DNA from: an uncultured Gemmiger sp.
GTDB taxonomy: Bacteria > Bacillota > Clostridia > Oscillospirales > Ruminococcaceae
Length of the DNA stretch: 64,000 bases
NCBI GenBank assembly: GCA_944388145.1
Contig: CALXHQ010000001.1
Span: 372,001-436,000, forward strand
Direction: 5' to 3'
A program made the translations under genes and the position numbers. Shown here one piece after another: positions 32,738-61,489 of the stretch (its first letter is position 1; each line of letters starts with the position of its first letter). The notes beneath the pieces were generated by a model. It saw only the letters and a list, made by a program, of their open reading frames with translations, did not search any database and had not been told where the DNA came from.

Positions 32738-32821
32738 GCGGAAGTGCTGGAATCGGCAGACAGGCACGTTTGAGGTGCGTGTGTCCATGACGTGTGGGTT
32801 CAAGTCCCATCTTCCGCACCA
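32738..32821 (+). tRNA. tRNA-Leu(GAG), island integration site
   Basis: An 84-nt class II tRNA with encoded CCA. The acceptor pairs GCGGAAG with CTTCCGC; anticodon GAG is at 32772-32774 in a TTGAGGT loop. Its last 24 bases are part of the 25-bp repeat that recurs at 41834-41858, so the mature gene was completed by the island's attachment sequence. Confidence 0.95.
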
Positions 32822-32822
32822 A
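32798..32822 (+). repeat. attL (25-bp direct repeat, left copy)
   Basis: 25 bp identical to 41834-41858, covering the T-arm and acceptor end of tRNA-Leu(GAG) through CCA. Differences on both sides (G versus A before, A versus G after) define its limits. Confidence 0.93.
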
Positions 32823-32824
32823 AG

Positions 32825-32863
32825 AAAAGAGCCTAGGAACGAAAGTTCTTAGGCTCTTTTCTT
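32825..32863 (+). terminator. Terminator after tRNA-Leu(GAG), supplied by the island
   Basis: A 16-bp near-perfect stem (32825-32840 with 32845-32860), GAAA loop, then C and TTTT. A different hairpin follows attR, probably the tRNA's original terminator. Confidence 0.88.
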
Positions 32864-32867
32864 TTGC

Positions 32868-32892
32868 TTTACCGCACTTTTGACCGCACTTG
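32868..32892. promoter_or_regulatory. Candidate integrase arm-type sites, left end
   Basis: TTTACCGCACTTTTG (32868-32882) is identical to 41709-41723 at the right end, and a second partial copy GACCGCACTTG follows at once. Repeats at both ends just inside the att sites are expected for arm-binding by a tyrosine integrase. Confidence 0.7.
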
Positions 32893-32923
32893 TTTTGCAG
32901 TCGAATGCAAAGGCATATGAATG

Positions 32924-33496
32924 TTATTTGATTTCGTTCCCGGTTCCGACAAGATCCACCAGTCTTTCACTGGAAACCGGTACTTCACCCCACCCTTCCA
33001 GGTAGTCAAGCCGGATATAGGGATCCGTGGTGATACTCCGAATCATAGACCGGGCACCCTCGGCAAACACCTTATACGCTTCCAGCTTATCTTCTTCGGT
33101 GGGAATCTGTACACCGTGAATGCCGTTTGCCTTCGCGTACTTCGCGATAGCGTTCATCATGGTGGGATTGTTGCGGTATTTCGCCACAAGGCTCTGCAGC
33201 TGGGTTTTGCTCAGGTCAAACGCGCCGCTCAACAGTTGCACATCTTCGGTAACATCTTTGCCGCGAAGCTCCACGGCTTTCCCCAGGCCACCGCTGACAG
33301 TGTCAAGAACGGCCTGAATCTGATTGTATGCCTTGTCGCAAGCCTCCCGCATCTCGGTGAAGAGCGCGTTATTCTCGGCCCGTGCGTACTCTTCAGAAAG
33401 GCGTTCACGGTTCCGGGCCTCCTGATCGGCAATCCGCCGGGCGGTTTTCTGATACTCCATAACCGCCTGCTTCATCTGATTTACATATTTGTTCAT
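32924..33496 (-). CDS. Hypothetical coiled-coil protein at the left end of the island
   Basis: 190 residues, no membrane segment. The first ~60 residues are rich in Glu/Arg/Ala heptads (RIADQEARNRERLSEEYARAENN), suggesting a coiled coil; the rest is mixed helix. It is the last gene of the leftward operon, 33 bp after the sigma-like gene. I do not recognise the family. By position it could be a late or accessory satellite function, for instance helper interference, but nothing in the sequence shows this. Confidence 0.72.
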   Translation of the reverse strand: MNKYVNQMKQAVMEYQKTARRIADQEARNRERLSEEYARAENNALFTEMREACDKAYNQIQAVLDTVSGGLGKAVELRGKDVTEDVQLLSGAFDLSKTQLQSLVAKYRNNPTMMNAIAKYAKANGIHGVQIPTEEDKLEAYKVFAEGARSMIRSITTDPYIRLDYLEGWGEVPVSSERLVDLVGTGNEIK

Positions 33497-33528
33497 ATTT
33501 TTTGTCCTCTCTTTCAGATTATCGTTTA

Positions 33529-34464
33529 TTATGTTTCTTGCGTTTTTTGCGGCATCACCTCCCCGGCGGGGCTTTCCTCCACGATGTACCCCCCTTTTCT
33601 CTCCAGGTACTCGACCGTGCGCTCTTCCACGCTGCCGCCCGCGTACCAGGCGGAAAAGCCGGTTCCGTGCCAGGCACGCCGCTGGATGGTCTCCTCCCGC
33701 CAGCGCATCAGGCGCGGGTTGCGGCGCAGCTTGCTGAACGCGGATGTCTTGGCCGTGTTGACCTGGCCTATTGTCAAGCCCTGTTCCTCGCTGATCTGGC
33801 GCACCGTCTTGCCGGCATAGTATTTCCCACGGATGACTGCCTGCTCGCGCTCGGTCAGCTTGTGCAGGGCTTCTTCCAGGGCGGCGTGCAGCTGCTCTTG
33901 AAAGATGGCGTCCTCCGCCGCCTGCATGGCGCTGTCAGCCGCCGGGTCGGGCTGCAGCTCGCCCAGGGTGGACGCGCCGCTGTCGTCCTCATCCAAGGGC
34001 GTGTCCAGGCTGGCGCAGTGGTTCAGCGGGTCGGCGGAAACGGTGTGCCGTTTGCCATCGGCATCGGTCACGTTGCGGCGGTGGCTGCCGGTCAGCGCCT
34101 GGTTGATCTGCCGCTGCATGGCCTGCCCCAGCCAGTTTGAAAAGCTGCCCGCCTCCGGCTGGTAGGTCTGGGCGGCGTACTGGACGGCAAAATAGCCTTC
34201 CTGTTCAAAGTCGTCTGCGGTCATGCCATGCGCGTCCGCCAGGGCCTTGTGCGCCGGATACCACCGCCAGAACAGGGTGCGCAGCAGCCCCCGGTTGATC
34301 TGCCACAGCTGGCCCAGGGCAAAGGCGTCCCCGGTCTTGGCCAGGGCGGCCAGCGCCGCGTTGACGGCCTGCTGCCCGGCAGGCTGTTCCGTCGGGTTTC
34401 TCTGGCTTCGCTCTCGGTTCAGTCCGGTTTCAGCGTCCGGCGGCGTTGTGTTTCTGCTTTCCAT
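33529..34464 (-). CDS. Sigma-70-like regulator of the island
   Basis: 311 residues from ATG with AAAGGGG upstream. Sigma region-2-like sequence lies near 55-130 (ADDFEQEGYFAVQYAAQTYQPEAGSFSNWL, with the DFEQEGY recognition segment) and a region-4-like HTH near 205-250 (LTEREQAVIRGKYYAGKTVRQISEEQGLTIGQVNTAKTSAFSKLR). A Ser/Asp-rich linker separates them. Phage and satellite late genes are often controlled by such factors. Its first 35 bp overlap the preceding zinc-ribbon gene. Whether it is a true sigma factor is inferred. Confidence 0.78.
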   Translation of the reverse strand: MESRNTTPPDAETGLNRERSQRNPTEQPAGQQAVNAALAALAKTGDAFALGQLWQINRGLLRTLFWRWYPAHKALADAHGMTADDFEQEGYFAVQYAAQTYQPEAGSFSNWLGQAMQRQINQALTGSHRRNVTDADGKRHTVSADPLNHCASLDTPLDEDDSGASTLGELQPDPAADSAMQAAEDAIFQEQLHAALEEALHKLTEREQAVIRGKYYAGKTVRQISEEQGLTIGQVNTAKTSAFSKLRRNPRLMRWREETIQRRAWHGTGFSAWYAGGSVEERTVEYLERKGGYIVEESPAGEVMPQKTQET

Positions 34465-34621
34465 GCTGCGCCCCTTTCCGCGCGAAAAGTTTCCCAGTGA
34501 CGGCGGGAAGCCCGCCGGGCGGTGGTGGAGGGGGTGATAGCCCCCGCCGGGGCGGGTCGCGGCAGTCGCACCGCTCGCCGGGGTCAAGGTTTGCCCCGCA
34601 ACAGGGGCAGGTCCAGTACAT
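34430..34621 (-). CDS. Small zinc-ribbon protein
   Basis: 63 residues. MYWTCPCCGANLDPGERCDC gives four or five cysteines in a CxxC...CxC pattern that could bind one zinc; a Pro-rich and then basic tail follows. The start overlaps the previous stop (TGATG), and the 3' end overlaps the sigma-like gene, so the three are translationally coupled. Function unknown; similar short ribbons are common in mobile elements. Confidence 0.72.
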   Translation of the reverse strand: MYWTCPCCGANLDPGERCDCRDPPRRGLSPPPPPPGGLPAVTGKLFARKGAQHGKQKHNAAGR

Positions 34622-34809
34622 CACCGCAGCTGCACCCGCATTCCATCCGGGAACAGAAGGAATAACTGCCCGTTCGGGTTGTCGGTCAGAACATGGCAGC
34701 CGGCGGCCAGCGAGGTCGTCAGCAGGCAGCCACCTTCTGCGCGGTCTTTGTAGCGGTCGGGGCAGTCTTTCGTGCAAGGGGCATCGTCAAGAGGGCAAAG
34801 CACGTCCAT
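34621..34809 (-). CDS. Cysteine-rich small protein
   Basis: 62 residues with six cysteines, five of them in the first half (MDVLCPLDDAPCTKDCPDRY, then GGC), suggesting a metal site or disulfide knot. GGAGGT lies six bases before the ATG. It starts the short cassette of Cys-rich genes after the DUF3987 gene. No recognised family. Confidence 0.68.
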   Translation of the reverse strand: MDVLCPLDDAPCTKDCPDRYKDRAEGGCLLTTSLAAGCHVLTDNPNGQLFLLFPDGMRVQLR

Positions 34810-34846
34810 TGGTAGACCTCCAAAAAGTTTTTTTCAAAAAGGCATG

Positions 34847-34874
34847 TGTGACTTTAGTGACTTTAGTGACTAAA
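34847..34874. repeat. 9-bp iterons at the 3' end of the DUF3987 gene
   Basis: Three tandem units of the TGTGACTTT/AGTGACTTT/AGTGACTAA type. A 19-bp stretch (34856-34874) is identical to 40390-40408 next to the integrase, 5.5 kb away. Confidence 0.7.
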
Positions 34875-36770
34875 GCCTTGGTTTTCGGCATTTTGCATCG
34901 CTTCGATGGGCCGTAAAATAACGGTCTCCGAAGGACGGCCGCCGCGCGGGATTTTGTCGATACGGATATACCCGCGCCGTTCCAACTCCTGCAAGCCGGG
35001 GTCAAGTTGGCGGGCGTTCATGCGGCCGTGGCACAGCCGCAGCACATCCCGTTTACCAATCTCTGGCTTTCCTGCACTTTGCAGGCGGTTCCAGATATAC
35101 CGGGCGTCCTTGACGGCCTGCGGCTCGGTCGCGCCCATCTGGCGGAATGCGGCGCAGCTGTGGGCGATAAAGTACCGAGCAATCGAGATGGCCGCCCGCA
35201 TGGTCTCGCCGGATAGCGGCTCGCTGTCGGCAAACAGGCCCACACGGGCACAGTGCAGCACGCCCGCAATGCGCATGGTCGTGCCGTGCAGTTTTCCGGC
35301 CCAGCCCTCCACGTCCTCCAGGTCGGTCACAAGGCGGCGTTCCAGCTCATCGAAGAACTGTTCGGCCAGCCCGGCAGCCGCCGGGGCAAACCGGATGATT
35401 TTGGGCGGGTCTGCGGGCTTGCTGTCCGCCTGGGTTTGCAGCAGGTCGGTCAGGCAATCGGCAAAGGCTTGCGCCACCGTGCCGGGGATGGCCGGGGTGC
35501 TGAACTGGCGGCACCCAACTTTGGAGGTTGGCAGGCTGTACAAAAAGCGGGCCAGCAGGCCGCGCCCGGCAAAGGTTTCGTTCTCCATGATCTCGCGCAG
35601 CACCGAGGGCTGCACCATCAGCAGCAGGGTTAAAGCCGGGTGCGCGATGGTCTCGGCCTTGCGGCCCTTGCGGTCGACCTGGATGGTGTCTCCCGTGTAG
35701 GCTTTGAGGAAGGTGTCAATGTTCGCACCGCCCTGTCCGCTGTACAGCCCGGCCAGAATGCCGAACAGGCCCCCCTCGGCGCTGAACACGCCCATGCGCC
35801 CGCTGTTGTCCGCCAGCAGGCTGGTCAGGGCCTCCGGGGTCACATCATCGGCCAGCAGGCGCAGCGGTTTCACGGGTTCCAGGCTGTCCAATTCGGCCTG
35901 CTTGGCGGCGATGTCCTCTGCCTTCCAGCTGTTCCCGCCCTTCTTGACCTTGCCCGCCTGCGCAAGCATGGATTCCACTTGCCGCGAAAGCAAGCTGGCT
36001 TGTATGCGGTACTCGTTGACCGCCGGGGCGCGGCGCTCGTTCTCGGCGGCGCAAAAGTCGTAAACGTGGCGGCTGATCTCGGCCAGCACCGGGCTTTTGC
36101 GCTCGCTGGGCTTTGCCACAACGGCAATGTACAAGTTCAGCGGCTCCAGCCACCCCGGCTTTGGGTTTACCTTGTACACGCCCTGCACGGCCAGCGAAAC
36201 GGCCGCCAGCAGCCCGGCGGCGGGCATATCGGCGGGAACCTGCAAGCTGGTTGCGATGGCCTGGGCATAGTCGCCCATCACAGGCGGCAGGGCTTCCACC
36301 GGGAAGCCGGGCAGGTCGTCCGCCTGCCCCTCGTCAAACGGTTCAAACGGGGCAAATCCGTCCGGCTCTGGTTCTTCTTCCTCCGGGACGATCTCGCGCA
36401 GCAGGCGCAGCCCGGCGGGCTGGAACTGGGCCGGGCCGGCGTTCAAACGCTCCAGATGGTCGGACTGAAACGCGCTGCACATATCGGGCGAATCATCCCC
36501 CACGGCGTCCAGACGGGCCAGCAGCAGGGCTTTGCATCGCTCTGCCCGGCTGGCGCTGTCGTTGGCGGTCAGTGCCAGGAAGTACAGCAGGGACAGCGCG
36601 CTTTCCTCGTTCAGCGCATGGGCCCCCAGCCCTTGCAGCAGGGCCATAAAGTCGGCGTCTGCGCAAACCAGGTCGCCCGGCTGCCGCCATTGTTCGGCGA
36701 ACGGCAGCAGCCGCATGGCGCACTGCTCCACGCCCGCCGGGTCCTTAAAGTGGATGTTCAACGTGGACAA
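34863..36770 (-). CDS. DUF3987-type replication/helicase-like protein
   Basis: Up to 635 residues, the largest island protein. The central and C-terminal parts (about 160-600) match the DUF3987 layout: IAVVAKPSERKSPVLAEI in the place of a P-loop, FSAEGGLFGILAGLYSG, GDTIQVDRKGR, and a C-terminal winged-helix-like segment. Such proteins occur in phages and islands next to primase or origin functions. ATG is absent: TTG at 36770 is possible, but TTG at 36761 is better spaced from GGGGGAG. It overlaps the preceding gene. The exact biochemical activity is not established. Confidence 0.78.
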   Translation of the reverse strand: MSTLNIHFKDPAGVEQCAMRLLPFAEQWRQPGDLVCADADFMALLQGLGAHALNEESALSLLYFLALTANDSASRAERCKALLLARLDAVGDDSPDMCSAFQSDHLERLNAGPAQFQPAGLRLLREIVPEEEEPEPDGFAPFEPFDEGQADDLPGFPVEALPPVMGDYAQAIATSLQVPADMPAAGLLAAVSLAVQGVYKVNPKPGWLEPLNLYIAVVAKPSERKSPVLAEISRHVYDFCAAENERRAPAVNEYRIQASLLSRQVESMLAQAGKVKKGGNSWKAEDIAAKQAELDSLEPVKPLRLLADDVTPEALTSLLADNSGRMGVFSAEGGLFGILAGLYSGQGGANIDTFLKAYTGDTIQVDRKGRKAETIAHPALTLLLMVQPSVLREIMENETFAGRGLLARFLYSLPTSKVGCRQFSTPAIPGTVAQAFADCLTDLLQTQADSKPADPPKIIRFAPAAAGLAEQFFDELERRLVTDLEDVEGWAGKLHGTTMRIAGVLHCARVGLFADSEPLSGETMRAAISIARYFIAHSCAAFRQMGATEPQAVKDARYIWNRLQSAGKPEIGKRDVLRLCHGRMNARQLDPGLQELERRGYIRIDKIPRGGRPSETVILRPIEAMQNAENQGFSH

Positions 36771-36972
36771 ACTCCCCCTTTTTCAGTGCGGCGGTGGCTC
36801 GCATGGCCCCCTGTTTGAGGCTTATGCCCGGCGGAACAAGAACGGCGACCGCCGTTGACTTCTCATCCCGGCACAAAGCCGCACCGAATTGCTTGTCACG
36901 AATCACATAGAACTCGCATCCGTCAATCTGGTAAAAATGCACATTCCTGCCCTTAAACTTTCCCAGCAGCAT
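36745..36972 (-). CDS. Small hypothetical protein of the island
   Basis: 75 residues from ATG with AAAGGGGG upstream. MLLGKFKGRNVHFYQIDGCEFYVIRDKQFGAAL suggests a small beta-rich fold; no motif is recognised. It overlaps the 41-residue gene before it and the DUF3987 gene after it, typical of a compact phage-like operon. Confidence 0.65.
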   Translation of the reverse strand: MLLGKFKGRNVHFYQIDGCEFYVIRDKQFGAALCRDEKSTAVAVLVPPGISLKQGAMRATAALKKGEFVHVEHPL

Positions 36973-37078
36973 GGCGGGCCGCCCCCTTTCCGTCAAGCGC
37001 CAAAATCTCCATCACTTTCCTGCGCAGCTCCGGGTCTGCGCGCATCGCGGCCAGCAGGCGGCGTTCTTCCTCTGTCAT
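36953..37078 (-). CDS. Very small hypothetical protein (41 residues)
   Basis: MTEEERRLLAAMRADPELRRKV begins a short, strongly helical, charged peptide. GGGGGCGGCAGG lies before the ATG, the ATG overlaps the upstream stop (ATGA), and the 3' end overlaps the next gene. The tight packing on both sides supports it as a real gene. Confidence 0.62.
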   Translation of the reverse strand: MTEEERRLLAAMRADPELRRKVMEILALDGKGAARHAAGKV

Positions 37079-37239
37079 ACCCTGCCGCCCCCTTTCTGGT
37101 GCTGTTCCCAATAGACCTGTTCCAGCACGGCAAGTTTCGTCAGGGCCAGGCGCAGGAACTGGGGTTCGGTGTTGCGGTTCAGAATGTCGCCGATCTGGCG
37201 GCGCAGATACTCGGTGCTGTCGAACCCGGATTTATTCAT
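37075..37239 (-). CDS. Small hypothetical protein (54 residues)
   Basis: 54 residues from ATG with GGGGGAAAG upstream; the longer open frame has no site. STEYLRRQIGDILNRNTEPQFLRLALTKLAVLEQVY looks like two helices. It overlaps neighbours on both sides by 4-8 bp. Function unknown. Confidence 0.65.
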   Translation of the reverse strand: MNKSGFDSTEYLRRQIGDILNRNTEPQFLRLALTKLAVLEQVYWEQHQKGGGRV

Positions 37240-37603
37240 TTGTCTTTCCCCCTGCAATCTCTGCCAGCGCGGCGCGGGCTGCTTCCTGGGCACTTTGCAT
37301 CTCGGCAACGGTCTTTTGCAGCCGTGCCAGCTCAACAGCCTGGGAAGTCTGCCGCCACAGGTCGGCAAGGTCCACCTGGGCGTCCAGCTGTTCCGCCGGG
37401 CGGATGTTGGTCACGGCGTACCCCTCCGCCTGCATCTGCTGGGTAATGTAGCCCGCCGGGCGCATCCCCAGGCGGGAAAGAGCGTCAACCCGGCCGCCGT
37501 CCAGGATCACGGTCTCGGTCTGCTCGGCGCGGGGCTTGGGCTGGCGGGTGTCCACAAAGGACACGGCATAGGCATACAGCCGGATGGTCTTTGTCAGTTT
37601 CAT
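37232..37603 (-). CDS. Hypothetical island protein with C-terminal helix
   Basis: 123 residues from ATG with TTGGAGGAA upstream. The N-terminal ~75 residues look like a small alpha/beta domain (IRLYAYAVSFVDTRQPKP...VTNIRP); the last ~50 form a long Ala/Gln/Glu-rich helix that may be a coiled coil. Overlaps the next gene by 8 bp. No recognised family. Confidence 0.65.
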   Translation of the reverse strand: MKLTKTIRLYAYAVSFVDTRQPKPRAEQTETVILDGGRVDALSRLGMRPAGYITQQMQAEGYAVTNIRPAEQLDAQVDLADLWRQTSQAVELARLQKTVAEMQSAQEAARAALAEIAGGKTNE

Positions 37604-37703
37604 TTGTCTTTTTCCTCCAATTCTGCTATACTGGAGGCGGTAAAGTGTGCAATTTTTTACCGCCTGGCCGTCCTGGATGTTGCAGCATCCGGGGCGGCCT
37701 TTC

Positions 37704-38417
37704 TCATTCACGGACAGCCGCCAGCATCCAGGCGGCAATTTCTTCCGGTGTGGAAGTCTCCAGCCGTTTGTCGAGCTGGCGGGTCATAACGCTGTGGGCT
37801 TCCTCGACCGTAGCACATTCGGCAACCTCCCGCAGCTCCGCATATTCCGGCGCATCGTACAGGGCGGGAAAGCGGCGGGCAGTATCAGCCCAGTGCCGGG
37901 CGGCTTCCCAGGCTGCCTCGGTCCCCCGGCGGAATTCCTCTGCGGCCGCGTGCAGCTGTTTCTCGGCATCCAAGAGAGCCTTGCCGGCTCGGACCTTTTC
38001 CGGGTCATTGCTCGCCAGAAGTTCCCAGGTGACCGGCGAAGTTTGCTGGCGGCTGGCTGCATACAGCAGTGAATGAGGCAACGCTTCCAGGTTTTTTAAT
38101 TCCGCCAAGTTGGCGGAATTAAAATTGTCGCCAATCGTCACCATGCGCCGGGCGCTGCCCTCGCTCAAGCCGCGGGCCTTGCACCAGGCAGTCCACTGAC
38201 CGCCGCCATACCGGCCGGCGCGGGCAAGTTTGGCGTGCATGGCTGCTACACGCTTGCAGGTCTCGATGTAGCTGCTGCCGGTGGCCTGGGCGTATTTGCA
38301 AAAGTCCAGGTCAATGCGCTGCAGTTCTGTGCGTTCCTCCATCTCCGCCGGGAAGGTGTACGTCTGAAATCCATACTCGTTCATGGCTCTGGCGGCCATA
38401 GCATTCTGTTCGTTCAT
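37704..38417 (-). CDS. Hypothetical phage-like protein with HTH-like segment
   Basis: 237 residues, start overlapping the preceding HTH gene in ATGA, with a good site inside that gene. The central part (WTAWCKARGLSEGSARRMVTIGDNF, about 75-100) looks like a helix-turn-helix, as in DUF3102/ParB-N-like phage proteins; the C-terminal half is helical and acidic. It could be a DNA-binding replication or partition accessory. Function not established. Confidence 0.66.
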   Translation of the reverse strand: MNEQNAMAARAMNEYGFQTYTFPAEMEERTELQRIDLDFCKYAQATGSSYIETCKRVAAMHAKLARAGRYGGGQWTAWCKARGLSEGSARRMVTIGDNFNSANLAELKNLEALPHSLLYAASRQQTSPVTWELLASNDPEKVRAGKALLDAEKQLHAAAEEFRRGTEAAWEAARHWADTARRFPALYDAPEYAELREVAECATVEEAHSVMTRQLDKRLETSTPEEIAAWMLAAVRE

Positions 38418-38644
38418 GCGGTCCTCCTGTTCTTCCGGGCGGCGTCAAAGAAGTATTTGCCGTAGTCGGCGCGGTCGATGTTCAACACCTGGGCAATGGC
38501 GTCCATCTGCCAGGCGTCAAAGGGCTGCTGGCCGGTCATGCGAGCGGTCATGGTGCTGGGGGCCATGCCGGCCCGGCGGGCCACCTCATTCTGGGTGATC
38601 TCGCACTCGGCAAAGCGAATGCGCAGGTTGTAGAAGGGTCTCAT
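38414..38644 (-). CDS. Small HTH protein (second gene of the leftward operon)
   Basis: 76 residues. NLRIRFAECEITQNEVARRAGMAPSTMTARMTGQQPFDAWQMDAIAQVLNI is a Cro/C1-type HTH with a weakly conserved recognition helix. ATGA overlap with the previous HTH gene. Probably an excisionase/Cro-like or replication regulator. Confidence 0.75.
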   Translation of the reverse strand: MRPFYNLRIRFAECEITQNEVARRAGMAPSTMTARMTGQQPFDAWQMDAIAQVLNIDRADYGKYFFDAARKNRRTA

Positions 38645-38850
38645 GCGTGGTTCACCTCCTTCTTGATGATGCTGTCCACCGGCACGCCCAGAGCGGCGGC
38701 AATCTTCCTGGCGGTGACAGGGGCGCACGCTTTCCCGCACCGCACAGCGGAAACGGTCACACGGGATACGCCAGCCATTTCCGCAAGTCGAATACTGGTA
38801 ATGTCCTGCTGCGCCATTTCTGCAATCAACTTTACACGGTCAATCCTCAT
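38641..38850 (-). CDS. Cro-like HTH regulator (first gene of the leftward operon)
   Basis: 69 residues from ATG 38850 with GGAGGTG eight bases upstream. RVKLIAEMAQQDITSIRLAEMAGVSRVTVSAVRCGKACAPVTARKIAAALGVPVDSI is a clear XRE/Cro HTH. It faces the divergent repressor across a shared three-operator region, the classic lysogeny-switch arrangement (cI/cro, Stl/Str). Confidence 0.85.
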   Translation of the reverse strand: MRIDRVKLIAEMAQQDITSIRLAEMAGVSRVTVSAVRCGKACAPVTARKIAAALGVPVDSIIKKEVNHA

Positions 38851-38874
38851 TAAGTTCACCTCCTATTGTGTTAA

Positions 38875-38945
38875 CGCAATTGCGTCAACACAATAGATTA
38901 TATACCGCAATTGCGATTATGTCAACAAAATGTTTTGCAATTGCG
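38875..38945. promoter_or_regulatory. Three-operator switch region
   Basis: The palindrome CGCAATTGCG occurs at 38875-38884 and 38906-38915, and as TGCAATTGCG at 38936-38945. Centres are 31 and 30 bp apart, close to three helical turns, so all lie on one face. The middle site fills the spacer of the leftward promoter, the left one lies just downstream of its -10, and the right one upstream of its -35. Confidence 0.9.
38897..38925 (-). promoter_or_regulatory. Leftward operon promoter of the island
   Basis: Perfect TTGACA (38920-38925), 17-bp spacer, TATAAT (38897-38902) on the minus strand. Such a strong promoter needs repression; the operators cover it. Confidence 0.92.
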
Positions 38946-38982
38946 TTAGCGTTGTGATATTGTATATGTTAGAGGTGATAGC

Positions 38983-39495
38983 ATTGGGATAGGGAAAAGA
39001 ATTCGTGAGTTGTGCGAACTACGCGGTTTGAGCATTCGCCGATTGTCTATCATGGCAAACATTCCATATAGTACACTTTACTCCATTATCAGCAGAGATA
39101 GCGCAGGGGCTGATAGCGAAACTATAAACCGCATAGCAAAAGCCTTAAATGTATCGGTAGCGGACATTTTGCTCGATATCGAAGAAATGGCAGATATTTT
39201 AAGCAAAACCAAAATTGATGAATCTGTTCAAGAAATTTCGGACAAATTGAAATCAGGTGCCGAGAGACTGAATGCATTTATAACCTCAATTCGCGCTGTC
39301 GGTTATGACCTTGTCATTGAAAAAGATACAAACAAGGAAGATATTTACACATTCAAGAAATGCGATAATTCTTGGGAACATCGCATCTCTCAACAAGATC
39401 TGGTCTCAATGCTGCATGAATCACTCGGGTATACGGAATATCTGTGCATTCGCATGGAAAAGAAGTTGGAAGAAGATTCCACTGGTGTTTCTTAA
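38983..39495 (+). CDS. Divergent XRE repressor of the island, non-ATG start
   Basis: N-terminal HTH (IGKRIRELCELRGLSIRRLSIMANIPYSTLYSIISRDSAGADSETINRIAKALNVSVADIL) and a C-terminal helical/mixed domain of ~100 residues. The HTH helix 1 is in frame upstream of TTG 39010, but no ATG, GTG or TTG exists there; ATT at 38983 sits five bases after GAGGTG and is the best start (170 residues). TTG 39010 would truncate helix 1. The gene is AT-rich compared with the host. By position it is the cI/Stl-like master repressor. Confidence 0.82.
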   Translation: MGIGKRIRELCELRGLSIRRLSIMANIPYSTLYSIISRDSAGADSETINRIAKALNVSVADILLDIEEMADILSKTKIDESVQEISDKLKSGAERLNAFITSIRAVGYDLVIEKDTNKEDIYTFKKCDNSWEHRISQQDLVSMLHESLGYTEYLCIRMEKKLEEDSTGVS

Positions 39496-39566
39496 TATCG
39501 TTGACCTGCCAGCCCCGCCGAGAATCCACTGCAGCAGCGCATGGCCGATCCGCCCCGAAGCTGACC

Positions 39567-39760
39567 GTGGTGGATTGTGGTGGTTTTGTGGTGGATTGGC
39601 ACACAAATCCACCACACTGTTATTGACGATATTCCGTTACTATTTTGTTTTTGTGGTGGATGTGGTGGATTTTGCAGGAAAAGTACCATACGAGAAAAAT
39701 AAAAAAATGAAAGTTATAGAGAGATTTTCAAAACGGCAAAAATCCACCACAATCCACCAC
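39567..39760. repeat. Iteron-like repeats around AT-rich DNA, candidate replication origin
   Basis: The 10-mer GTGGTGGATT occurs perfectly at 39567 and 39588 (+), 39606 (-), 39662 (+), 39741 and 39751 (-), with variants at 39577 and 39653. The copies form two clusters, direct on the left and inverted on the right, flanking AT-rich stretches 39616-39652 and 39672-39740. The layout matches island/plasmid origins (as in SaPIs) bound by an initiator. Confidence 0.78.
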
Positions 39761-39872
39761 AGACCCGCCACAGTCGCCGGACTTTCCGGCATTTCTTACA
39801 CATAGGAAACCGTATACTTCTCAGGACGTCAATTCCGAGACCGGGAAAGTATACGACCTTGATGGGCGCCCG

Positions 39873-40240
39873 GCGGGTTTTATGACACGACAACGCGCGA
39901 GGCCACACCCTCGCACAGTGACCCGCTGGCGGGAATGTCCCGGACCCGCACGAGTAAGCCGCCCGCCGGGCAGGTAGTTTTTCACGGTGGGGGCATGACA
40001 CGGACAAAACAGCCCGGCGGGACACAAAGCCCCACAACGCCCCGGTTTTCGCCCCCCTGTGGCGCGTTCCAGCGCACAGGCGGCAAACTATATTCCTACT
40101 CGCCAGAACGCCGCACAGCGCCCCGCCGGGGCCTTCCTGCGAGGGCGGGGACGCCAAGGGGAGGATTTTGTAACACGACACGCGCGGGAATTTCTGGACA
40201 CGATAACGCGCGCGGGTTTTATGACGCGATAACGCGCGGG
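39873..40240. repeat. GC-rich non-coding block with dispersed repeats
   Basis: A motif of the form GGGTTTTATGACRCGAYAACG followed by CGCG occurs at 39873-39899 and 40213-40238, with partial copies at 40171-40187 and 40197-40213. CCCGCCGGG-type palindromes occur several times. No convincing gene is seen between 39496 and 40614. Confidence 0.6.
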
Positions 40241-40380
40241 CGGCTCGCGCCCCAAAACCTTATAAAACCTAAAATCCAGCCAGGAAACGCCACCCCGCCG
40301 GGCAGAGCACGGCATTAAACCGAATAAACTGTATCAACTGAAAGCAGGCAACACAAAAACACATTTTTCCCTTGCCTGCC

Positions 40381-40459
40381 AGTGACTAAAGTGACTTTAG
40401 TGACTAAATCGCTGGTATTCGTGAATAAAGTCACTAAAGACACTAAAGTCACCCGGTCA
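40381..40459. repeat. 9-bp iterons upstream of the integrase
   Basis: Three direct units of AGTGACTWW (40381-40408), a 20-bp gap, then inverted units (AGTCACTAA, AGACACTAA, AGTCAC; 40428-40452). The direct block shares 19 bp with the repeat at 34856-34874. Confidence 0.72.
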
Positions 40460-40614
40460 CTGGACACAAAAAGAAAAAACCGCCCCCGGCGGCAACCGGG
40501 AACGGTTTTGAATAGAACGGCTCACACAGCAACGTGTATAAGCAGCCCCAACATCTGCTATTATACACCTTCCTGCGTGGGCCTGTCAAAACATACCCAC
40601 AAGGAGGTCTTTGT

Positions 40615-41688
40615 ATGGGCAGACGAACGAACACAGCCGCCTGGAACGGCAAACGCTGGCGCATTGACGTGCAGAAGGACGGCACCCGCAAGAGCTTTTA
40701 CAGCTCAAAGCCCGGCCGCACCGGCCAGCGGGAAGCAAACGCCAAAGCGGACGCCTGGCTGGAGGAAGGCATCGAGGCCAAAGCGCCCCGCGTCAGCGAA
40801 GCCGGTCAGCAATGGCTGCAGGAAGTGCACCTCACGACCAGCTCAACCAACTACCGCCCGCTGGAAAGCCGCTGGCGGGTATGGGTGCTGCCCCAGATCG
40901 GCAGCAAGCGGGTCAGCAACCTGACAGACCAGGACCTGCAGAACATCGTCAACAAGGCATATTCCGCCGGGCGCAGCCGCAAGACGCTGCAGCTGCTTTG
41001 TGCAGACCTGCGGGCGTTTTGCAAGTATTGCCGCAAGTCAAAGTTTGCCCGTTACACGCCGGAAGACTTGCGCGTTCCCGCCGGGGCCAGGTACAAAGGC
41101 AAAACCGTCCTGCAGCCGGCGGACCTTGTCAAGCTGTTCAATACTGACACGACCGTATATAAGGGCCGCACGGTACACGATGATTTCATCCAGGCGTACC
41201 GCTTCCAGGTGCTGACCGGCCTGCGTCCTGGTGAGCTGCTGGGCCTGCGCTGGGCGGATATTCACGGCAACACGGTGCAGGTGGCCCGCTCGGTCAACGT
41301 GGACGGCGAGGAAACCCAGGGCAAGAACCAGAATGCGGTGCGTGCCTTTGTGATGTCAGACATGGCCCGGCGGGTGCTGGAAGATCAGCGCCAGGTCACC
41401 GGCAGCGAGGACAGCGTGTTTGCCCTGGGCTCGGAACAGTATTATTACCACCGCTGGCGGGTGTACTGTAAGGCCAACGGGCTGACGCCCTGCTCCCCCT
41501 ACGAGCTGCGGCACACCTTTGTTTCTGTGGTCAAGACGCTGCCCGCCGGGGAGGTCAAGCAGCTGGTGGGCCACAGTCAGGACATGGACACCTTCGGCGT
41601 GTACGGCCACGCCCTGACCGGCGATGATGAGACCACCGCCCAGGCCGTGAACGGGGTGTTCCTGCGGGTGCTGAAAACCGCCCAATAG
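40615..41688 (+). CDS. int: Tyrosine-type site-specific integrase
   Basis: 357 residues from ATG with AAGGAGGT upstream. An AP2-like N-terminal arm-binding part (1-55), a SAM-like core-binding domain (about 60-150), and a catalytic domain with Arg204 (TGLRPGELLGLRW), a lysine near 237, Arg299 (PYELRHTF), His320 (VGH) and nucleophile Tyr330 (FGVYGH). The first residue of the HxxR box is Tyr296 instead of His. It is the last island gene, 145 bp from attR, and should catalyse recombination at the tRNA-Leu site. Confidence 0.95.
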   Translation: MGRRTNTAAWNGKRWRIDVQKDGTRKSFYSSKPGRTGQREANAKADAWLEEGIEAKAPRVSEAGQQWLQEVHLTTSSTNYRPLESRWRVWVLPQIGSKRVSNLTDQDLQNIVNKAYSAGRSRKTLQLLCADLRAFCKYCRKSKFARYTPEDLRVPAGARYKGKTVLQPADLVKLFNTDTTVYKGRTVHDDFIQAYRFQVLTGLRPGELLGLRWADIHGNTVQVARSVNVDGEETQGKNQNAVRAFVMSDMARRVLEDQRQVTGSEDSVFALGSEQYYYHRWRVYCKANGLTPCSPYELRHTFVSVVKTLPAGEVKQLVGHSQDMDTFGVYGHALTGDDETTAQAVNGVFLRVLKTAQ

Positions 41689-41708
41689 AGCCCCGCCGTA
41701 CCGCATAT

Positions 41709-41723
41709 TTTACCGCACTTTTG
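41709..41723. promoter_or_regulatory. Candidate integrase arm-type site, right end
   Basis: TTTACCGCACTTTTG, identical to 32868-32882. It lies between the integrase stop and attR. Confidence 0.68.
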
Positions 41724-41833
41724 GTTTTTACATCGGCCTGTGGCGTTCCTGTTATGCAAATGCAGGCCGCCCGGCGGGCCGCCTTATTGCTCACATTGCC
41801 CGGCGTACCGGCACGGCAATTCAACGCTGAATA

Positions 41834-41858
41834 GTTCAAGTCCCATCTTCCGCACCAA
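41834..41858 (+). repeat. attR (25-bp direct repeat, right copy)
   Basis: Identical to 32798-32822: the remnant 3' end of the original tRNA-Leu(GAG). Confidence 0.93.
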
Positions 41859-59454: not shown

Positions 59455-59752
59455 TCAAAGCTAAATGCATTGACGGGGAGAAAGCGTTCCCAGTTCCAGC
59501 TATAGAGAGCCGCCGGGTGGTGCAAGGCGGTGCGGACAGGAATGCGTCACTGGCCCCTGAGCAGCCCTGCTGAGCGCCGCTGGCGTTAGGCAAGGCCGGA
59601 ACCTGACCGTTATCATGCAGGCGCGATTCGCTTCGGCTGATCGTACAGAGGGGCCGCCCGCCGGGCGGCAACGAGAGTGGTACCGCGGGTACAGCAAATG
59701 GATTTGTTTCCCGTCTCTCAAAGGCAACACGCCTTTGAGGGACGGTTTTTTT
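59455..59752 (+). promoter_or_regulatory. Leucine T-box riboswitch upstream of leuA
   Basis: Stem I (from about 59470) holds AGAGAGCC and GGTGGTGCAAGG distal elements. The specifier reads CTG (59550-59552), directly before GCCCCTGAG, where the specifier lies in T-boxes. The T-box sequence AGAGTGGTACCGCG is at 59674-59687, its TGGT matching an ACCA tRNA end. A terminator (59711-59725 with 59731-59745, then seven T) follows. Uncharged tRNA-Leu(CAG) should switch on transcription. Confidence 0.93.
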
Positions 59753-59818: not shown

Positions 59819-61489
59819 ATGATGGATGCAAGCAAATACCATGTTGGTTACTATCCCCCGCCGGTGGAGCCGGGACATGTCTATGACTGGATGATGAAAG
59901 ATCACATCGAAAAGGCGCCCATCTGGTGCAGCGTCGATCTGCGCGACGGCAACCAGAGCCTGATCGTCCCCATGAGCCTGGAGGAGAAGCTGGAATTCTA
60001 CGACATGCTCATCAAGATCGGCTTCAAAGAGATTGAGGTTGGCTTTCCCGCCGCCAGCGAGACCGAGTACGAATTTTTGCGCAAGCTGATCGATGAGAAG
60101 CGCATCCCCGATGATGTGACGGTACAGGTGCTGACCCAGTGCCGTGACCACATCATCCGCAAAACCTTCGAGGCGGTGCAGGGCGCGCCCCGGGCGGTGA
60201 TTCACTTCTACAATTCCACCAGCGTGGCCCAGCGGGAACAGGTGTTCAAGAAATCCAAGGAGGAGATCAAGCAGATCGCCGTGGACGGGGCCAAGCTGGT
60301 CAAGCAGCTGAGCGAGGAGTACGAGGGCAACTTCCTGTTTGAGTACAGCCCCGAGAGCTTTACCGGCACCGAGCCGGAGTACGCGGTGGAGGTGTGCAAC
60401 GCGGTGCTGGATGTGATGCAGCCCACCCCCGACCGGCCGATGATCATCAACCTGCCGGTCACCGTGGAGATGAGCATGCCCCACATCTACGCCAACCAGA
60501 TCGAGTGGTGCTCCAAGCACCTGAAATACCGGGACAGCGTCATCCTGTCCAGCCACCCCCACAATGACCGGGGCTGCGGCGTGGCCGATGCCGAACTGGC
60601 CATCCTGGCTGGCGCCCAGCGGGTGGAGTGCTGCCTGTTCGGCAACGGCGAGCGCACCGGCAATGTGGATGCCATCACGCTGGCGATGAACATGTACAGC
60701 CATGGCGTGGACCCGCACCTGGACTTTTCCAACATGCCCGCCATCTGCGAGACGTATGAGCGGGTGACCCGCATGCACGTCTACGAGCGCACCCCCTACG
60801 CCGGCGGCCTGGTGTTCGCAGCGTTCAGCGGCAGCCATCAGGACGCAATCGCCAAGGGCATGACCTACCGCAAGGAGCACCACCTGCACGAGTGGACCTG
60901 CCCCTATATCCCCATCGACCCCCACGACATCGGCCGTACCTACGACGCCGACGTCATCCGCATCAACAGCCAGAGCGGCAAGGGCGGGATCGGCTTCCTG
61001 CTGCAGCAGAAATACGGCTACAATCCCCCGCCCCGCATGCGGGAGGACCTGGGCTACAAGGTCAAGGAGGTTTCCGACCACGAACACCGCGAGCTGAGCG
61101 TGGAGGAGGTGCTCTACGTCTTTGAGCGCAGCTACCTCAACCACACCAGGCCGCTGGATGTGACCGAGGCCCACTTCCGGCAGATGGGCGGCAGCGAGAA
61201 GATCGAGGCCACCGTCACGCTGAAGATCGACGACAAGGTGACCGAGTGCGTTTCCACCGGCAACGGCCGCCTGGATGCGGTGGCCACCGCCATCGAGCAC
61301 GAGACCGGCATGCACTTTACGCTGGTGCATTACAGCGAGCACGCGCTGGATTCCGACACCGACAGCCGTGCCTGCAGCTATGTGGGCCTGAAATGGGCCA
61401 GCGGCGCCGAGACCTGGGGCTGCGGCACCGACACCGACATCATCGTGGCCGGCATCAAAGCGCTGGTCAGCGCCATCAACAACAAGTAA
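59819..61489 (+). CDS. leuA: 2-isopropylmalate synthase (long, type II)
   Basis: 556 residues from ATG with AAAGGAGG ten bases upstream. Joins acetyl-CoA and 2-ketoisovalerate, the first step of leucine synthesis. DmpG/HMGL-like barrel with SVDLRDGNQSLI early, HPHNDRGCGVADAELAILAGAQRVE (metal histidines) and GNGERTGN; the C-terminal ~150 residues form the regulatory domain for leucine feedback. The length and the early YPPPVEPGHVYDW-type start mark the LeuA type II (yeast/mycobacterial-like) form. Confidence 0.96.
   Translation: MMDASKYHVGYYPPPVEPGHVYDWMMKDHIEKAPIWCSVDLRDGNQSLIVPMSLEEKLEFYDMLIKIGFKEIEVGFPAASETEYEFLRKLIDEKRIPDDVTVQVLTQCRDHIIRKTFEAVQGAPRAVIHFYNSTSVAQREQVFKKSKEEIKQIAVDGAKLVKQLSEEYEGNFLFEYSPESFTGTEPEYAVEVCNAVLDVMQPTPDRPMIINLPVTVEMSMPHIYANQIEWCSKHLKYRDSVILSSHPHNDRGCGVADAELAILAGAQRVECCLFGNGERTGNVDAITLAMNMYSHGVDPHLDFSNMPAICETYERVTRMHVYERTPYAGGLVFAAFSGSHQDAIAKGMTYRKEHHLHEWTCPYIPIDPHDIGRTYDADVIRINSQSGKGGIGFLLQQKYGYNPPPRMREDLGYKVKEVSDHEHRELSVEEVLYVFERSYLNHTRPLDVTEAHFRQMGGSEKIEATVTLKIDDKVTECVSTGNGRLDAVATAIEHETGMHFTLVHYSEHALDSDTDSRACSYVGLKWASGAETWGCGTDTDIIVAGIKALVSAINNK

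Follow-up and report, generated by a model that had tools for sequence, protein, structure and literature searches.

The window analysed here is a stretch of 64,000 nucleotides from an uncultured Gemmiger sp. (assembly GCA_944388145.1, contig CALXHQ010000001.1, positions 372,001 to 436,000 of the forward strand), and all unprefixed coordinates count from its first letter. It contains a genetic island inserted at a tRNA-Leu(gag) gene. It is one member of a family of such islands, found repeatedly at tRNA genes, and we consider it probable that it is a phage satellite of this Gemmiger-type gut bacterium, resembling the phage-inducible chromosomal islands (PICIs). In the following, L and G numbers denote the loci and genomes that were compared with the window.

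The island is enclosed by a direct attachment (att) repeat of 25 bp, identical at 25/25 bases, which is the 3' end of tRNA-Leu(gag) and whose two copies lie 9,036 bp apart from start to start. A contig of genome G030 has the same tRNA-Leu(gag) without a window-type insert, and its upstream gene and tRNA are 83% identical to those of the window over about 1.15 kb. At this empty site the att core is followed by a terminator hairpin, after which the homology to the right flank of the window ends. The window has that native hairpin beyond attR; the hairpin beside attL is a different one and presumably the island's own. The G+C content of the island is 0.592, against 0.593 in the rest of the window. 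The features are as follows (aa, amino acids; ORF, open reading frame; HTH, helix-turn-helix).

32738-32821, plus strand: tRNA-Leu(gag), the integration target, detected by ARAGORN as a whole tRNA
32798-32822, plus strand: attL core, 25-bp repeat
32821-32864, no strand: hairpin next to attL, probably a tRNA terminator contributed by the island (inverted repeat; empty-site comparison)
32924-33496, minus strand: cc190, helical coiled-coil protein of 190 aa, candidate virion-assembly or interference gene (gene call, relatives)
33529-34464, minus strand: sigma-70-like factor, 311 aa (PF04545, 3.5e-9; phrog_351, 1.7e-21; alignment of 12)
34430-34621, minus strand: Cys-rich, zinc-ribbon-like ORF, 63 aa, start inferred (conserved in L025, L003 and L024 by tblastn; no PHROG match)
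34621-34809, minus strand: Cys-rich protein, 62 aa (gene call; 97% identical in L025, 90% in L003; no Pfam or PHROG match)
34848-34871, plus strand: iterons of period 9 at the 3' end of the DUF3987 gene
34863-36761, minus strand: DUF3987 replication protein, phage-helicase-like, 632 aa (PF13148, 1.8e-105; phrog_2373, 8.8e-67)
36745-36972, minus strand: 75-aa protein with no assigned function (82% identical in L025, 66% in L003)
36953-37078, minus strand: 41-aa ORF (100% identical in L025)
37075-37239, minus strand: 54-aa protein (92-93% identical in L025 and L003)
37232-37603, minus strand: 123-aa protein with no assigned function (relatives in L024 to L028)
37704-38417, minus strand: 237-aa protein, phrog_1733 of unknown function (76% identical in L028 and L029)
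38414-38644, minus strand: HTH protein, 76 aa (phrog_4583, 3e-9; tblastn 39-93% in seven related loci, of which L002 is the same contig as L025)
38641-38850, minus strand: Cro-like HTH protein, 69 aa (phrog_8, 2.9e-6; gene call; relatives)
39010-39495, plus strand: HTH repressor, divergently transcribed, 161 aa or more depending on the uncertain start (PF13443, 3.6e-8; not called by the codon-based caller)
39567-40238, no strand: repeat-rich DNA without a called gene, in part conserved in relatives
40381-40452, no strand: second group of iterons, arranged as an inverted repeat with a short spacer (DNA fold z-score -5.1)
40615-41688, plus strand: tyrosine integrase, 357 aa (PF00589, 2.2e-12; phrog_1, 1.5e-43)
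41834-41858, plus strand: attR core, 25-bp repeat

Fourteen genes are present, two rightward (repressor and integrase) and 12 leftward, the latter in the order Cro-like, 76-aa HTH, 237-aa, 123-aa, 54-aa, 41-aa, 75-aa, DUF3987, two Cys-rich, sigma and cc190 when read from the regulators. The codon-based gene caller gave 10 of the 14, together with one spurious 34-aa ORF; the repressor, the 41-aa and 75-aa proteins and one Cys-rich ORF came from the ORF list, Pfam or conservation. No clear match to a terminase, portal, capsid, tail, lysis or relaxase family was obtained for the island proteins, all 14 of which were scanned against PHROGs (some small ones as longer ORFs) and 10 of the 14 one by one against Pfam. 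A first-pass annotation, made from the letters of the window, had described a tRNA-Leu island with a 25-bp att repeat, an integrase, a repressor and Cro-like pair, a compact leftward operon, a sigma-like factor, zinc ribbons, a coiled-coil protein and repeat-rich DNA, and no structural genes. Its attachment site is borne out by the identical bases, the ARAGORN tRNA and the G030 site without insert; the integrase, HTH repressor, sigma and DUF3987 genes are recovered by Pfam and PHROGs, and the Cro-like and 76-aa HTH genes by PHROGs. The 12 proteins it counted become 14, and its zinc ribbons correspond to the two short Cys-rich ORFs, which drew no PHROG match. The absence of structural genes holds for this island but not for the family, in which relatives carry scaffold and capsid, tape-measure or weak TerS-like genes.

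The repeat-rich character of the island also stands. Eight TTTAGTGACT-type units (at most one mismatch) lie inside it, where 200 shuffles averaged 0.18 and reached 2 at most, and none lies in the window outside it. One cluster of units lies at the 3' end of DUF3987, the other in the gap that separates the repressor gene from the integrase gene. The G030 island L025, whose DUF3987 protein is 97% identical, keeps the same units, and the contig L003 (DUF3987 95% identical) shows, by eye, other short repeats at the equivalent places; this is consistent with an iteron replicon. A separate type of repeat, GACACGATAACGCGCG, occurs at 39884, 40197 and 40223 of the window. It adjoins zeta-toxin-like genes in L027, L028, L032 and L073, and stands without an adjoining zeta gene in the window and in L025.

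The sigma-like factor defines the family. Among 61 genomes searched, 35 of them of the same genus, its strong relatives (E 5.5e-79 or better) occupy 12 places including the window, in 11/35 same-genus genomes. At six of these 12 places both exact att copies are on one contig, 9.0-13.1 kb apart.

Window island: 9,036 bp, tRNA-Leu, both att copies exact
L024 island: 9,816 bp, tRNA-Val, both att copies exact
L028 island: 11,144 bp, tRNA-Val, both att copies exact
L029 island: 9,986 bp, tRNA-Val, both att copies exact
L032 island: 13,094 bp, tRNA-Thr, both att copies exact
L033 island: 9,952 bp, tRNA-Thr, both att copies exact

In L025 one att copy is exact, and the other, in tRNA-Leu(cag), has three mismatches; L026 and L031 have the second copy on another contig, which also carries an integrase; no bounds were obtained for L027 and L034, and L030 is a prophage. 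The G030 island (L025:7109-17406) seems to sit at tRNA-Leu(cag) with an attR of tRNA-Leu(gag) sequence, as if its target had changed.

The same organization extends beyond the genus. With the 12-row sigma alignment as query and a cut-off of E 1e-30, a family-level search of 247 genomes from 126 genera returned 17 sigma places in 16/247 genomes and 13/126 genera, and 15/17 of the places were outside the genus. A tRNA was detected in nine of the 12 loci fetched from these 15, and in all nine the tRNA 3' end is repeated 7.1-16.0 kb away (at most one mismatch in 26-40 bases), with the sigma gene between the copies. In total, 15 loci in 8 genera are islands bounded on both sides. The genes of these elements are constrained: dN/dS is 0.05-0.46 across 13 gene pairs, which are not all independent and were kept from 14 after the TerS pair L033/L080 was left out as out of frame. 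The codon-based caller is weak at other base composition and missed the sigma gene in L128 and L133-L139; pooled scans of 79 island proteins matched 48 and 137 families, of which the top 25 by frequency were listed in each case, so that a single relaxase or lysis gene may lie among the rarer ones. The space between integrase and regulators holds cargo in relatives: AbiD (2.7e-88), a candidate-defence PDC-S13 protein, a nucleotidyltransferase and its partner gene, or zeta-toxin-like genes; in the window no gene was called there. A 91-aa protein lies between sigma and the tRNA end in four islands (L028:4337-4612, L026:6711-6986, L029:16622-16897 and L032:11450-11725), and the copy in L028 has a weak DUF7307 match.

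The region near sigma differs from island to island. Directly downstream of sigma is a coiled-coil protein in the window, L024 and L027, and in L129 and L130 a 220-aa protein with no blastp link to the coiled-coil proteins. The latter form two blastp-linked groups (window, L033 and L133; L024 and L027), which align loosely with each other. A profile search found relatives of cc190 in four other genomes of the genus, and blastp found them in L033 and L133, the gene of L133 lying 3.4 kb from sigma. L033 carries near sigma a weak TerS-like gene of 107 aa (best E 1.1e-3), a 68-aa gene and then the cc190 relative. In L031 a head-scaffold gene and a major-capsid gene stand immediately upstream of sigma, and L003 has such a pair at its contig end; the PHROGs capsid matches are 2.4e-52 and 8.9e-56. 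The IMG/VR contig L090 has a scaffold and capsid pair as well; its capsid shares 91% identity with the L031 capsid, and a phrog_36-type regulator stands where sigma would. Tape-measure proteins occur downstream of sigma in L032 (677 aa, 1e-55, with a Gp15 protein, about 1.5-3.5 kb away) and in L131 (735 aa, phrog_58, 5e-49). PHROGs matched neither of two small genes that precede the tape measure of L032, nor the 133-aa gene that precedes that of L131; the idea that the 133-aa gene is a tail-assembly chaperone was dropped for this reason. Among the called genes of L025, L026, L028, L029 and L132 there is no assembly-type gene near sigma. Neither portal nor large terminase was seen in these islands, for which not every small ORF was scanned and of which L026, L031 and L131 are truncated where their contigs end. 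The best reading of this pattern is that the assembly gene near sigma may be exchangeable among family members.

For cc190 itself, the PHROGs match to tape-measure proteins is weak (2.6e-5), and coiled coil alone may account for the score. AlphaFold2 predicts an all-helical protein (pLDDT 57.2 in a first model and 67.9 in a second), and of the best three viral Foldseek matches (E 0.014-0.15) two are phage proteins that are uncharacterised and one has no name; none was used to assign a function. Phage records held no match to cc190 or to the coiled-coil protein of L024. PADLOC, run on four window proteins, matched cc190 alone to a candidate system, weakly (E 0.0022), and this match was not used. 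Because relatives have scaffold and capsid, tape-measure or TerS-like genes near sigma, cc190 might act in or against virion assembly, which we put forward as a weak suggestion.

A link to a prophage comes from genome G031. Its prophage region L030/L071 encodes a sigma factor 50% identical and an integrase 48% identical to those of the window; sigma is followed by a 71-aa ORF and by TerL, portal, minor head and scaffold genes, and further on by a capsid gene and an 875-aa tape measure (3e-51). The prophage and the capsid-bearing island L031 are on the same contig. Because the prophage sigma gene lies just upstream of TerL and portal, the sigma-like factor probably ties the island family to late-gene control. 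A known analogy is the delta gene of the satellite P4, a homologue of the late activator ogr of phage P2.

The relative L003 bears on mobility. In integrated islands, integrase and sigma are near opposite ends; in this 8,457-bp contig they are adjacent across a single tRNA-3'-like core, which is the gene order expected of the circularised (attP) form. We propose the following course of events. A helper phage would relieve the repressor, and the derepressed island would excise, replicate from its iterons and be packaged in helper-made particles. Less certainly, the sigma-like protein would drive late promoters of the island's last gene and perhaps also of the helper, as P4 delta does by analogy in the P2 system; cc190, tentatively, would work in or against virion assembly. 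Two IMG/VR contigs, L086 and L087, have an integrase 67% identical to that of the island, and L087 also has Cro-like and HTH76-like genes, beside genes that by eye resemble virion genes; these contigs are possibly of a helper-type phage.

Records of a phage collection are suggestive. MT837714 matches the L033 island at 93-97% identity in the three longest matches and at 83% and 68% in two shorter ones. MT836843 has an end overlap of 124 bp, giving a closed circle of 8,390 bp; 10 of its ORFs, scanned against PHROGs, include sigma, integrase, repressor and an abortive-infection protein among others, and no head, tail or packaging family. With a sigma only 29% identical and a G+C of 0.41, it belongs to another host bacterium. 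Both records are from human faecal samples from Mexico and presumably derive from the DNase-treated particle study PMC8361208; together they hint at packaging. In IMG/VR, an exact scan for the attL junction gave 0 matches, and peptide patterns for DUF3987 yielded none that was confirmed.

How does the island compare with known satellites? According to PMC6092414, a PICI has an integrase, a replication module and a master transcriptional regulator in conserved organization, uses prophage-free attachment sites, typically measures 12-15 kb, has its origin 3' of the replication gene, is induced by phage and forms infectious particles. The island matches the organization of integrase, replication and regulator genes, and its repeats at 34848-34871, 3' of the DUF3987 gene, would match the origin position. 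It has no clear structural gene, whereas the relatives L003, L031, L032 and L131 do. At 9,036 bp, with relatives of 7.1-16.0 kb, it departs from the 12-15 kb, which is a typical value and not a strict limit. tRNA sites are common to the islands, and related integrases are also found in the prophage L030 and the viral contigs L086/L087. One insertion site and divergent regulators are likenesses to PICIs; DUF3987 and an own sigma-like factor are differences. The island would work like a PICI and may belong to the class: gene organization, the lack of structural genes and the origin agree and the typical size does not, all of it read from sequence. The capsid homologues in its relatives are reminiscent of Ccm from SaPIbov5 and of the capsid genes in EcCICFT073 and PmCI172 (PMC8569155, PMC6092414). 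Capsid-forming PICIs (cf-PICIs) are resembled by L003, L031 and L090 in their capsid and scaffold genes; in contrast, no portal or terminase was seen beside these capsids (L031 and L090 are truncated by contig ends), and the window island has neither a capsid gene nor a packaging gene set. In the PICI-like elements (PLEs) of Vibrio cholerae, the tape-measure protein (TMP) and tail-assembly chaperone (TAC) enter chimeric tails, a recent and demonstrated finding, and putative tmp genes also occur in PLE-like elements and cf-PICIs (PMC12987554). The tape-measure proteins of L032 and L131 are a likeness to PLEs; the host is another, and the window island has no tape-measure gene beyond the weak cc190 match. 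No PLE-type gene set was seen, and no search aimed at one was made; dependence on ICP1 is a further mark of PLEs. P4-like satellites, which are marked by the genes alpha, psu, sid and delta, supply with their late-activator homologue an analogy for the sigma-like factor; they differ in host and gene families, and no P4 marker name appeared among the Pfam and PHROGs matches.

Relatives of the L030-type TerL are present in 27/35 genus genomes, true prophages included, and TerL was considered as a marker of a resident helper; this use was dropped after six further places were viewed, which comprise two head and tail clusters (L107, L108), three orphan TerL genes (L105, L106, L145) and one prophage-like region (L144). 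The clusters (L107:2613-12050, L108:9879-19528) hold terminase, portal, capsid and tail genes, and within the 20 kb retrieved no integrase was called; the orphans (L105:12398-13846, L106:10779-12228, L145:7475-8924) are each accompanied by a 63-aa gene. Relatives of the L107 capsid occur in 25/35 genus genomes, and a long distance separates the capsid gene from the orphan TerL in G004, G026 and G034. The L107/L108-type clusters and the orphan TerL genes are candidate parts of a gene transfer agent (GTA)-like operon. GTA-like packaging of 8.4-8.9 kb of host DNA has been described in Gemmiger (PMC12946183, which reports no operon there).

A number of observations weigh against a satellite. The genome of the window has no match to the L030-type TerL, the L031 capsid or the L107 cluster capsid, and its matches to phrog_2 are weak only. 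Closure of L003 can only be inferred, because its contig ends have no exact overlap. Three of the 12 fetched loci from other genera are unbounded, with no tRNA detected. For cc190 there is no confident structural match, Foldseek returning 0 at E <0.001 in viral and PDB libraries. PICIs have exclusive genes such as stl, ppi and cpm, and no named PICI gene was recognised among the Pfam and PHROG matches, which were made without dedicated models. The virome support is soft, because MT837794, a further record of that set, resembles normal chromosomal DNA around a tRNA-Leu(gag), and GTA-like packaging is reported in Gemmiger (PMC12946183). Finally, L034, L069 and L070 are eroded; part of the family could therefore be prophage decay. 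L069 has a 77-aa capsid-like fragment beside a sigma fragment, and L070 has a capsid gene without a called integrase or sigma.

L070 is of note in its own right. It is a second, eroded island of 7.5 kb at tRNA-Leu(gag) in G010 (L070:5631-13190), in which an HK97-type capsid gene (PF05065, 4.2e-19) is the last called gene before att. A phage-collection record (L082:3578-3661) resembles plain chromosome around tRNA-Leu(gag) and may be contamination or packaged host DNA.

We weighed three other explanations. First, the islands could be decayed prophages that kept integration and the early half and lost their late genes by deletion, those with capsid or tape measure being intermediate stages. The sigma, integrase and layout shared with the prophage L030/L071 fit this view, as do the eroded copies L069 and L070. 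Four findings speak against it: a recurrent size of 7-16 kb with both att ends at the 15 loci in 8 genera, purifying selection on the island genes, the circularised gene order of L003, and late-module slices that differ between islands while the early genes stay. We thus regard decay as unlikely. The first-pass annotation had named close relatives with capsid, terminase and lysis genes attached as a sign of decay; no such set was seen in the annotated related islands, of which not every small ORF was scanned. Its assignment to a satellite class remains the best-supported reading, qualified by the prophage region L030/L071, which joins a related sigma and integrase to terminase, portal, capsid and tape measure.

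Second, the island could be an integrative mobilizable element (IME), moved by conjugation with the help of an integrative and conjugative element (ICE). An integrase, a tRNA site, a replication protein and a small size would also suit an IME, and relaxases are found elsewhere in 5/8 genomes. The earlier annotation had held that a relaxase in homologous islands would speak against a satellite; by position, matches to PF03432, the one relaxase family searched, fall inside 0/8 islands, and no relaxase family turned up among the individually scanned proteins. Conjugative mobilization, which would have to run through another relaxase family or an oriT element without relaxase, is very improbable. 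Third, we give next to no credence to carriage of the islands in the GTA-like particles of Gemmiger instead of by a specific helper phage: the reported 8.4-8.9 kb of packaged DNA, the lengths of L003, L081 and the window island (8.4-9.0 kb) and the common genes resembling a domesticated cluster (TerL 27/35, capsid 25/35) favour it, but 5/6 fully bounded same-genus islands exceed 9.8 kb, the genome of the window has no match to cluster-type TerL or capsid, and GTA packaging is unspecific and leaves the replication module unexplained.

A phage satellite therefore remains our preferred account of the island, and it may be taken one step further, tentatively and with rather less confidence. The family would share one chassis of tRNA integrase, regulators, exchangeable replication module and sigma, and its members would differ in the slice of virion genes placed near sigma. 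Sigma would switch this cassette and couple it to the late transcription of the helper, or commandeer it, and the tape-measure members would build chimeric tails. If this is true, a sigma factor and an exchangeable assembly cassette are parts with which to ask how satellites seize capsid size, tail length and packaging, and the members with a tape measure would join the PLEs as another group of satellites with predicted chimeric tails. In gut viromes, moreover, it is easy to mistake such islands, prophages and host DNA packaged by a GTA for one another. No paper on satellites in Gemmiger or Faecalibacterium was found in a title and abstract search of the open-access literature, to which subscription journals are mostly external. 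Both genera are abundant in the human gut.

Elsewhere in the window, a T-box leader (59461-59721, 97.1 bits) lies upstream of a gene called at 59819.

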